The notes under the pieces are model-generated. The model ran no database searches, was not told the origin of the DNA, and was given only the letters and a program-made list of their open reading frames with translations. A program made the translations under genes and the position numbers. Source: Candidatus Gastranaerophilales bacterium (GTDB lineage: Bacteria > Cyanobacteriota > Vampirovibrionia > Gastranaerophilales > Gastranaerophilaceae). From it: a stretch of DNA of 64,000 nucleotides. Shown piece by piece: positions 1-62,105 of this stretch. The stretch spans positions 1 to 64,000 of the forward strand of contig CALVEB010000010.1 in NCBI GenBank assembly GCA_944326465.1. The letters are read 5' to 3'. The number at the start of each line of letters is the position of its first letter. Positions within the stretch are counted from its first letter, which is position 1.

Positions 1-594
1 TATGCTGATCCAATAGAGGATACAGGAAGTCAGGTATCCTGCATGGCATATATGGTGGATGTAAACGGAAAGAAAGGTCCGAATAGAGTTGGTAAAGATA
101 TTCAACTATCTTCCGGCGTAGCATTCTCAACCTGCGATAACCCGATAGGTGACATGTGCTGGTCAACAGAGTTCCAAGCGAATAGAGCAATTAACACTTG
201 TGCTGGAAGTGAATATGAAAATATGGAAGAAATGCATGGAAGCAATTGTTCTACAAACTATTGGGCAGGAGCGAAACTAACTTGTCAAGAAAAAGGAATG
301 GAACTTCCAACGAGAGCGCAACTTGCACAATTGGCAAGCAATCTATATGTAGATAGCGAAGGCAACGCAGTAACAATAGGAGCAAACGAGGATAAATCAG
401 GCCTCAAGGTAAAGGACGAATACACCCAAAATCCTCCAATCAAATACAATGGCTACGACTACTGGTCCAGTGAGGAGCGCAAAGCTGGCAGCGCGTACGG
501 CCAGACCTTCAACATTACCACCACGTACGGTAGTGACAATTACTGGATCTACAAGTACCACAGCGACGGCCGCGCTATATGTGTGTCGAACTAA
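1..594 (+). CDS. Prepilin-like variable surface protein, 3' part (copy 1)
   Basis: The reading frame is open from the first base, so the N terminus lies outside the window. It aligns almost residue for residue with the complete protein at 43908-44966, which begins with a type IV prepilin-like segment; the missing part is presumably the same. Visible are a conserved body with several cysteines and the motif MELPTRAQLAQLA, then a C-terminal module with YWSSEE, a central AYGQTF and a final RAICVSN, resembling Lcl/DUF1566 C-type-lectin-like domains. The last ~45 codons (about 454-591) differ strongly from the paralog and are richer in GC-ending codons than the body. A hairpin spans the stop codon. 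Probable role (inference): an exported, pilin-like protein with a variable ligand-binding tip. Confidence 0.85.
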   Translation, partial: YADPIEDTGSQVSCMAYMVDVNGKKGPNRVGKDIQLSSGVAFSTCDNPIGDMCWSTEFQANRAINTCAGSEYENMEEMHGSNCSTNYWAGAKLTCQEKGMELPTRAQLAQLASNLYVDSEGNAVTIGANEDKSGLKVKDEYTQNPPIKYNGYDYWSSEERKAGSAYGQTFNITTTYGSDNYWIYKYHSDGRAICVSN

Positions 595-43907: not shown

Positions 43908-44966
43908 ATGAAAAAGATAAATATGCACTCAAGACAAGCTTTCACTCTCGCCGAGGTCTTAATAACTCTAGCTGTTATCGGCATTGTTGCCGCGTTAACC
44001 CTTCCGGGTCTCATCCAGAACCACAATGAAAAAGCATGGTCTACAGCGAAAGATCTCTGGGAAAAGAAGTTAACTGAAACAGTAAGACGCATGAACATTG
44101 ACGGAGTCATGACAGGACACGATACTACAGAGGATTTCATGAACACTTTCAAAAACTACATGAAAGTTATTAAAACCTGCGACAATAGCGACATTAATAA
44201 GTGCTACTCACCTAAAGTTGTCACAACAGGTAAGAACGATGCGTTAGAAGAAATTGAAACCGACGGTCTTACTTCTGCATCAAGCATGGGATTAAAAGAA
44301 TGGCAAACTAATACAAATACCATGTCTTTTGTAGTTGCGGACGGAACAACGGTAATTATGGCGTACCAGCCGGAATGCCCTTATGCAGATCCGATAGAAG
44401 ATACAGGAAGTCAAGTAAGCTGCATGGCATACATGGTAGATGTAAACGGAAAGAAAGGCCCGAATAGAGTTGGCAAAGATATTCAACTATCATCAGGTGT
44501 AGCCTTCTCAACTTGCGATAACCCTATAGGCGACATGTGCTGGTCAACAGATTTCCTAGCAAACCGTGCAATAGATACATGCGTTGGCAGCGAATATGAA
44601 GATATGGAAGAACAACATGGAAGCTACTGCTCTACAAACTATTGGGCAGGAGCAAAACTAAGCTGCCAAGATAAAGGCATGGAACTTCCAACGAGAGCAC
44701 AATTAGCACAACTAGCTAATGAATTATACGTAGACAGCAACGGTAATGCAGTAGAGATAGCATATAACGAAGACAAATCAGGAATCAAACTCAAAGACGA
44801 ATACAGCCAAAATCCTCCTCTTACTCTTGGCTACGTCTACTGGTCCAGTGAGGAGTACCGTGCGAATCTCGCGTACTATCGGAACTTCTACACTACGGGC
44901 AGCAGTAGCAGGAACAGCACCAGCAAGAACTTCAGCCACCTCCGCGCTATATGTATATCGAACTAA
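43908..44966 (+). CDS. Prepilin-like variable surface protein (copy 2, complete)
   Basis: 352 residues. The N terminus RQAFTLAEVLITLAVIG is a type IV prepilin/pseudopilin cleavage-methylation motif (F after the cleavage site, E at +5) followed by a hydrophobic helix, so it probably passes through a pilin-type export system. The body has many cysteines and DVNGKKGPNRVGKD. The C-terminal module has MELPTRAQLAQLANELYV, YWSSEEYRANLAYYRNFY and RAICISN, Lcl/DUF1566-like. Codons after about 44829 are richer in NNC and differ from copy 1, while the last block and stop hairpin are conserved. An AGGAGG site precedes ATG. Confidence 0.88.
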   Translation: MKKINMHSRQAFTLAEVLITLAVIGIVAALTLPGLIQNHNEKAWSTAKDLWEKKLTETVRRMNIDGVMTGHDTTEDFMNTFKNYMKVIKTCDNSDINKCYSPKVVTTGKNDALEEIETDGLTSASSMGLKEWQTNTNTMSFVVADGTTVIMAYQPECPYADPIEDTGSQVSCMAYMVDVNGKKGPNRVGKDIQLSSGVAFSTCDNPIGDMCWSTDFLANRAIDTCVGSEYEDMEEQHGSYCSTNYWAGAKLSCQDKGMELPTRAQLAQLANELYVDSNGNAVEIAYNEDKSGIKLKDEYSQNPPLTLGYVYWSSEEYRANLAYYRNFYTTGSSSRNSTSKNFSHLRAICISN

Positions 44967-44986
44967 GGGCTCTGCCCTTAGTTCGA
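44958..44986. repeat. Perfect 13-bp hairpin spanning the stop codon of copy 2
   Basis: TCGAACTAAGGGC (44958-44970), loop TCT, GCCCTTAGTTCGA (44974-44986). The stop TAA is in the left arm. Compared with 586-618 the stem changes from AAGAGGC/GCCTCTT to AAGGGC/GCCCTT on both sides, so pairing is conserved. Confidence 0.85.
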
Positions 44987-52043: not shown

Positions 52044-52784
52044 TTAGTACCTTATTTTTCTCGGATAATCATCAGGAATTTTCCAGCCGTTTTTGGCAAT
52101 TATTGCAGTACAGTAGCCCCCGCTTGCACTTGATATACTACAACCTCTGTCCTGATCATTATATAAACTTTTAACCTCACCATCCCAACGATGCAGTGTC
52201 GGCTCTAATCCTTTTCCCATTAAGTACTTCCATGTCCAATCAGTATTTGATGACATTGAGATATTAACAGGATAAAATTCAAATGCAAAAGAACAAATGC
52301 CCAGACGCTCTTTTTTTTCTGCAAAGGTAATGCAATTTTCAGCTTTATACGGGAAAAACTCCCAATCGCGTATTTGATGATATACATATGCAAAAGCACT
52401 GCCATCCGGGAAAAAATATAAAAATCTCTTATTCCCTTCAAAATCAATTACTTCCTTTTTAGAAATGCCCTTCAGATATGGAGCAATGTATTTTTGGAAG
52501 GCAGCATCTGTTGCATCTGATTGATTTATTAAATTATCTTCATCATCATATTCGTCTGTCACCCAGTAATCCCATGTTTCCGGCGCTCCGTTGTCAACTT
52601 TTGACATTTGTATTGCCTGATTCATCATTGAATAGAATTTCGCAAGCCTTGCTTCGGTCATTTTTTCTGTGTATTGCTGTAATATTCCAGGAATTGTTAA
52701 TGCAGCGACTACTCCTATAATTGCAATGGTAATAAGAACCTCTGCAAGTGTAAACGCAAATTTTAAATTTTTAATATATTTCAT
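52044..52784 (-). CDS. Prepilin-type N-terminal cleavage/methylation protein
   Basis: 246 residues from MKYIKNLKFAFTLAEVLITI, a type IV prepilin/pseudopilin motif (cleavage before F, Glu at +5), with a hydrophobic helix. The body belongs to another subfamily than copies 1 and 2: it has no YWSSEE module and ends KNGWKIPDDYPRKIRY. GGAGGT lies 7 bp before the ATG. It is divergent from an XRE regulator. Confidence 0.85.
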   Translation of the reverse strand: MKYIKNLKFAFTLAEVLITIAIIGVVAALTIPGILQQYTEKMTEARLAKFYSMMNQAIQMSKVDNGAPETWDYWVTDEYDDEDNLINQSDATDAAFQKYIAPYLKGISKKEVIDFEGNKRFLYFFPDGSAFAYVYHQIRDWEFFPYKAENCITFAEKKERLGICSFAFEFYPVNISMSSNTDWTWKYLMGKGLEPTLHRWDGEVKSLYNDQDRGCSISSASGGYCTAIIAKNGWKIPDDYPRKIRY

Positions 52785-61037: not shown

Positions 61038-62105
61038 ATGTTTAAAAAAGCTTTTACGTTAGCTGAAGTCTTAATAACTCTAGCAGTTATTGGCATCGTT
61101 GCCGCGTTAACCATCCCAAAATTTATCCAGAATAACAACCAGAAAGCATGGGATACAGCAGCAGATGTCTTTAACAAACGCTTAGAAGTCGCAGCCCGTG
61201 TCATGAATACACAGGAAACCTTAGCAGGATATTCAAACACCAAAGACTTTGTTACAGAACTTAAAAAGCACATCAAAATAACAAGAATATGCGATAACGA
61301 TGAATTAACAAAATGTTTCCCAGAAAAAGTATTCTGGGGCGCAGAGCAAGAAGAAATAGACGTAGACAAGGATATTAAAAGCGCTAAAAACATGGGACAG
61401 GATGACTGGGGAACAGAGGTAATCGGTGCACAGTTTGCAAACGGCATTGACGCACTTATTGCTTATGACCCGAATTGCACCCAAGACCCATATAACAACC
61501 AGATACAGGCATCAAACTGCATGGCAATATTATATGATGTCTCTGCCAAAAAGAACCCGAACAGCTATGGCAAAGACCTTCGTGCAAATGGTAACGTTCT
61601 TTCTTTAGGTGGTATTGAATGTGTTTTTGAAGTAAATGGAACATGTTATACTAATCCTACATTGCCAACACCAATGACACTTGCAGAATGTGAACAGGCT
61701 GTAGCAGAAGGCACATTAGGAATAAAAACTTGCGAATATGATAACGATTACTGGGCGGGTGCCGTAAAACACTGCGGCGGAGTTCAGAATATGCCAACAC
61801 CTACACAACTAGCAGAGATAGCAACGGATTTGTATGGAGATCATGGTTTTAGTAGCACTAACGATGGAACAACGTATGGCTTAACCATGGACAAGACAAA
61901 GCCATACGTATCAATCCTTAATGCCATATACGGCGACATGGCAGGAATCTCTGACAGAACTTTCTCGATTTGGTCAGGTCAAGAGTACAGTCGGTACAGT
62001 GCGTACAATCGTTTCTTCAATTCTACCTCTACGTACTTGGGCTACAACGGTGGTTCCGGCTACCGTGGTCTTAGCGACAGACTCGCGGTATGTATTAGCC
62101 ATTAA
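61038..62105 (+). CDS. Prepilin-like variable surface protein (copy 3, divergent)
   Basis: 355 residues from MFKKAFTLAEVLITLAVIG, a prepilin motif. The body shares with copies 1 and 2 a DV(S/N)xKKxPNxxGKD segment, YWAGAxxxC, and MPTPTQLAEIATDLYG. The C-terminal module reads SIWSGQEYSRYSAYNRFF then a Gly/Tyr/Ser stretch and DRLAVCISH. It has the same Lcl/DUF1566 outline but is not a recent duplicate. GGAG is 9 bp before ATG 61038; ATG 61032 is closer than usual. Like the others it is divergent from an XRE gene. Confidence 0.85.
   Translation: MFKKAFTLAEVLITLAVIGIVAALTIPKFIQNNNQKAWDTAADVFNKRLEVAARVMNTQETLAGYSNTKDFVTELKKHIKITRICDNDELTKCFPEKVFWGAEQEEIDVDKDIKSAKNMGQDDWGTEVIGAQFANGIDALIAYDPNCTQDPYNNQIQASNCMAILYDVSAKKNPNSYGKDLRANGNVLSLGGIECVFEVNGTCYTNPTLPTPMTLAECEQAVAEGTLGIKTCEYDNDYWAGAVKHCGGVQNMPTPTQLAEIATDLYGDHGFSSTNDGTTYGLTMDKTKPYVSILNAIYGDMAGISDRTFSIWSGQEYSRYSAYNRFFNSTSTYLGYNGGSGYRGLSDRLAVCISH

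Follow-up and report, generated by a model that had tools for sequence, protein, structure and literature searches.

A putative trans-acting diversity-generating retroelement with dispersed prepilin targets in a Candidatus Gastranaerophilales genome

Diversity-generating retroelements (DGRs) usually hold their reverse transcriptase (RT), template repeat (TR) and target in a single cassette, although this layout is not obligatory, and an inverted repeat or hairpin after the variable region (VR) has been reported in most of them. In BPP-1, such a structure is required for efficient retrohoming (PMC3240598). Among the cyanobacteria, 121 DGR-diversified genes have been described over 21 genomes and tied to signalling (Vallota-Eastman 2020, PMC7517822). 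Our literature search found no paper joining Gastranaerophilales with retroelements. The window analyzed here, a stretch of 64 kb, is the start of contig C10 in a genome that comprises 52 contigs and 2.07 Mb. A first-pass annotation had read the variable 3′ end of a prepilin gene at the contig start as a DGR target. This reading is borne out by the genome, in which RT, Avd, templates and adenine-confined changes are all present, and the sequences make it highly probable that a trans-acting DGR diversifies a dispersed prepilin family.

The gene in question (copy 1, positions 1-594, plus strand) is cut at its 5′ end by the contig start (base 1) and encodes a putative C-terminal lectin-like domain that ends in a VR (451-582, plus strand; GGCTACnnC TACTGG ... 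CGCGCTATATGT). A second prepilin gene of the window (copy 2, 43908-44966, plus strand) encodes an N-terminal methylation motif (PF07963, E 7.7e-6, over the cut-off; also matched by TIGR02532) and a C-terminal variable domain with its VR at 44829-44954 (plus strand). The N-terminal part that would hold this motif is missing from the truncated copy 1. The protein match between both copies is 78% identical over 197 aa. The bodies of the two genes, which had been called almost identical, share 83% of their DNA and 86% of their protein sequence, so that this wording was too strong; the described divergence of the ends, which rejoin at RAIC(V/I)SN, is correct. In their variable parts, the copies are 75% identical in DNA over the ungapped columns, with 16 gap columns. 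The variable region is also GC-richer than the body, as had been stated (0.55 vs 0.42, with 0.36 for the window).

The genome encodes one DGR-type RT (C9:49537-50670, minus strand), which shares 32% identity with BPP-1 Brt (E 7e-49), its IGNLTSQ being aligned to IGSLTSQ of Brt, and has 8ub7 as its best PDB relative (E 6.8e-40); its placement in the DGR clade is based on these pairwise comparisons, not on a tree. Many records of its relatives carry the names Candidatus Gastranaerophilales or Melainabacteria. Two Avd-like proteins, as expected for a DGR, score over the cut-off of the Pfam bAvd family (PF22296, E 8.8e-13 and 2.6e-12), and neither gave a BLAST alignment with BPP-1 Avd. One bAvd gene adjoins each of the two templates described below. 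The components are distributed over three contigs, with the RT on C9, TR1-avd on C12 and VR-avd-TR2 on C19. The RT is adjacent to neither template, and a search for a TR beside it on C9 found none. Given this separation, the RT could serve these loci only by acting in trans. Genes for a prepilin peptidase and for a T2SSF protein resembling PilC are also present. A second RVT_1 protein (C49, L002:1138-2562, minus strand) was rejected as a DGR RT because it is DRT2-like (NCBIfam DRT2, E 1.7e-107, below the equivalog cut-off; PADLOC Drt2, E 2.5e-122); the same genome thus carries a DRT2-like defence reverse transcriptase.

With copy 1 as the query, 47 places in the genome were matched. At least 34 prepilin genes possess TR1-type ends, namely 31 distinct aligned sequences, the C15 gene, the C32:65 gene and a C30 duplicate, and three further prepilin genes possess TR2-type variable ends, which amounts to at least 37 targets, a minimum since the VR count derives from searches. 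Several genes of the family sit at contig ends, as repeats would. The template TR1 (C12:10073-10195, minus strand) was detected by scanning the 3′ ends of the target family; it lies in a short intergenic stretch and is non-coding and adenine-rich, with AAC or AAT at the variable codons. Among the 31 VRs aligned with it, 13 show no change at all at non-A positions (0/960), while 267 of 633 adenines (42%) are changed. The concentration of substitutions at template adenines, which the annotation had proposed, is thus strict in these VRs and only a bias in copies 1 and 2. The changed adenines fall almost all in AAC or AAT codons. Rates were taken from the 11 VRs that align without gaps and carry no more than one non-A change; there, the first adenine of AAY codons is changed in 65% and the second in 47% of cases, compared to about 1.5% for the adenines of other codons. 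This gap probably reflects selection on the scaffold, and a context effect of the RT may also be behind it. About a dozen VRs besides copies 1 and 2 have at least five non-A changes relative to TR1. The second template, TR2 (C19:12688-12807, plus strand), is likewise non-coding and adenine-rich. It matches the end of the neighbouring C19 prepilin with changes at 0/80 non-A and 19/40 A positions and that of a C22 prepilin with 1/80 and 18/40, respectively; the fit to a C11 prepilin is poorer (12/80 and 16/40).

Although two non-coding template repeats of the anticipated kind were found, copy 1 itself is not a clean match at the non-A positions. Compared to TR1, 19 of its 49 adenines and 7 of its 74 non-A positions are changed. 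Of the 26 differing positions, 19 coincide with adenines of the template, whose share of all positions is 40% (permutation p = 0.0001); the adenine-directed nnC codon pattern noted in the annotation is therefore not a chance pattern. Three of the seven non-A differences are common to VRs of the sister species G117 (GCG to GCT, the third base of the next codon, and TCC to ACC) and four are private, which is why we regard copy 1 as probably the VR of an older or different template that has drifted since. Judged from its sequence, it is a genuine but ageing, partly decayed VR of a large DGR family. Copy 2 (19/47 A and 6/70 non-A changed, 6 gap columns) belongs to a short subfamily that is two codons shorter than TR1 and in which the pattern ACT ACG xxC AGT recurs in several copies. 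TR1 does not fit this subfamily, and no other template came out of BLAST, of the leader-RNA model described below or of a TR2 scan, with adenines masked, across the retrieved loci. By these alignments, copies 1 and 2 represent separate VR subfamilies, and neither can be derived cleanly from TR1. This accounts for the third-position changes and the length difference between them, which are real and had led the annotation to caution that one shared template is insufficient.

The window contains a third prepilin gene (61038-62105, plus strand) whose variable end has diverged and is of the WSGQE kind seen in TR2 and in the same-genus genome G017. Since its ungapped non-A matches are poor (46/80 to TR2, 52/78 to the G017 template), this end appears to be decayed or to stem from another, unseen template. 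A further prepilin-like gene at 52047-52784 (minus strand) has no recognisable variable end. Outside the genus, a prepilin of G090 (C20:27323-28372, L124) is 83% identical to copy 2, which suggests transfer or contamination.

In 27 of the 31 distinct TR1-type targets, an inverted repeat of 10-15 bp spans the stop codon 3′ of the VR, while shuffled sequences average about 3.8 bp. Copy 1 carries such a repeat at 586-618 (14 bp stem, 5 nt loop; shuffle stem mean 3.8), a candidate DGR target hairpin or cruciform, and copy 2 at 44958-44986 (13 bp stem, 3 nt loop). In some copies the stem varies on both arms (TCGAAC/GTTCGA, TCCAAC/GTTGGA). The TR loci are without the stop-codon repeat, and no inverted repeat of 10-15 bp was found in the TR2-type targets. 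The repeat may also act as a transcription terminator, with no T tract after it. A further signature lies in the substitutions themselves. The first A is changed to T in 67 of 150 changed AAC codons vs 2 of 21 changed AAT codons (p = 0.0017, in a test that assumes independent codons and to whose outcome selection could contribute), and the commonest outcome is Tyr for AAC and Gly for AAT. This agrees with the published context bias of bRT, i.e. towards Tyr for AAC and towards Gly or Asp for AAU (PMC12875486).

An element of about 91 nt is located upstream of nine templates, TR1 and TR2 among them. We describe it as a leader RNA (L045:10265-10357, minus strand; L048:3529-3620, plus strand) that is covarying and conserved 5′ of DGR templates. 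Its consensus contains 20 pairs, 15 of which are changed on both sides, and 91.5% of the cells pair vs 35-43% with a slid partner, a comparison that favours the proposed structure because the latter came from the tested alignment itself. Searched with the leader model, the window's genome gives two hits and no more, at TR1 and TR2; RT loci of relatives that had no part in building the model are matched as well. A search of Rfam gave no match to the leader RNA. A hairpin followed by a T tract, resembling an intrinsic terminator, lies 3′ of TR1. One leader stem weakly matches the BPP-1 spacer RNA (10.3 bits, E 0.1 in 6 kb, L238:2857-2879), and we leave the equation of both RNAs, which rests on this one stem, as a lead.

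The AlphaFold model of residues 205-352 of copy 2 reached a pLDDT of 88.7 and a pTM of 0.85. Its nearest PDB folds in Foldseek are the C-terminal domains of Bd2740 and Lcl (best E 0.016, none individually significant), followed at weak E-values by a Bacteroides fimbrial protein and by intimin, FGE, link and C-type lectin domains. The model hence suggests a C-type-lectin-like fold of the C-terminal domain. The Lcl or C-type-lectin likeness proposed in the annotation is retained at the level of the modeled fold, within the limits of these E-values, and does not extend to a DUF1566 Pfam match, none being found for copy 2.

On contig C23 of G017, target, avd, TR and RT are arranged in canonical order on one contig, the single-cassette layout that the window's genome lacks. 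The G017 RT is 56% identical to the one described here, and its template matches 18 of 20 aligned VR loci with zero to two non-A changes (overall 1.8% of non-A and 45% of A positions changed). Where relatives have retained the cassette, only about 45-65 nt separate TR from RT. Four of six same-genus species (G053, G080, G105 and G117) gave no matches for a DGR RT or Avd and retain expanded pilin arrays. These species may have lost the DGR and kept frozen targets, and many VRs in the group may be frozen.

We propose the following course for the diversification. RT and Avd would bind the template RNA, which would be copied with random bases incorporated opposite its adenines, and the cDNA would then replace the VR of any target that has the common 3′ CGCGCTATATGT block and the inverted repeat. 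The products would be type IV pilin-like proteins that show a ligand-binding domain of lectin fold at the cell surface. Copy 1 (454-594) would have been diversified in this manner in the past, probably by a template variant now absent from the assembly. Retrohoming, expression and current activity of the system are inferred here from sequence. On balance, we favour a genome-wide trans DGR in which one RT serves leader-bearing template RNA genes, at least TR1 standing alone with its own terminator, and some 35-40 dispersed pilin lectin tips are rewritten independently. Each cell would thereby have a combinatorial adhesin repertoire, and older VR subfamilies, those of copies 1 and 2 among them, would be remnants of a turnover of templates between species.

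A divergence of paralogs without any RT, or antigenic variation by gene conversion, with AAC-like codons resulting from selection on the lectin loops, could be considered for a large dispersed paralog family whose targets are unlinked to the RT. It is hardly credible, since the genome holds a non-coding template that has A exactly where the targets vary and from which the clean VRs show 0/960 changes at all other sites, together with an RT of DGR type, Avd proteins and another, independent pair of template and target; for the clean VRs, the template match refutes it. It is also conceivable, although improbable, that every VR subfamily has its own extant template that the draft assembly missed, so that copies 1 and 2 would be active too. 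The three non-A differences that copy 1 has in common with G117 VRs, the recurrence of ACT ACG xxC AGT in the short subfamily of copy 2 and the contig breaks at these repeats would fit this idea, but the assembly is 99.7% complete, the leader-RNA model gives TR1 and TR2 only, and four of the non-A changes in copy 1 are private.

Somewhat less probable again is that the DGR is now inactive and that the VRs are frozen past products, which drift apart through ordinary mutation and through gene conversion between paralogs. This would agree with the RT standing by itself, with the same-genus species that still have arrays without RT or Avd, and with the finding of five or more non-A changes in copies 1 and 2 as well as in roughly a dozen further VRs. 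Long inactivity would however add non-A changes, and their complete absence from 13 VRs in which 42% of the adenines are changed argues against it, as do the intact RT, both Avd genes and both leader RNAs. For old subfamilies including copies 1 and 2, inactivity may be the right explanation. If the clean copies are active, a small gut relative of cyanobacteria keeps dozens of surface proteins that are independently hypermutated from one template, a DGR repertoire unusually large for a 2 Mb genome, and the diversification of gut adhesins or receptors becomes directly testable in metagenome reads. The leader RNA upstream of the template offers a starting point for studying the recruitment of template RNAs in trans.

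Compared to the BPP-1 DGR (mtd-avd-TR-brt), the system shares the RT family with its IG-LTSQ motif, the Avd family, an adenine-directed VR and an inverted repeat 3′ of the VR near the stop codon (PMC3240598). It differs in that a single RT would act in trans, with two templates, on at least 37 targets dispersed over the chromosome, in its longer stems (10-15 bp) with loops mostly of 3-5 nt that are not of the GRNA type, in the TR-RT gap of the cassette-keeping relatives and in the structured RNA 5′ of the TR, unlike the BPP-1 spacer element. The G017 DGR has the same prepilin target family, Avd, leader RNA, TR and RT, and differs in its intact cassette. Cyanobacterial DGRs with remote variable proteins likewise have dispersed paralogous CLec targets with the VR at the 3′ end, whereas at least 37 prepilins are found here in a single genome of 2.07 Mb (Vallota-Eastman 2020, PMC7517822). 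In Thiohalocapsa PB-PSB1, targets also equal a remote TR at all non-adenines, which was read as diversification in trans, while its nine DGR loci have conflict-system targets and no pilins (PMC10907252). The pilus-tip DGRs of Bacteroides, also gut bacteria, similarly diversify a pilus protein in its binding domain; their targets are type V lipoprotein tip pilins, in contrast to the prepilins with an N-terminal methylation motif in Melainabacteria/Gastranaerophilales described here (PMC12632263).
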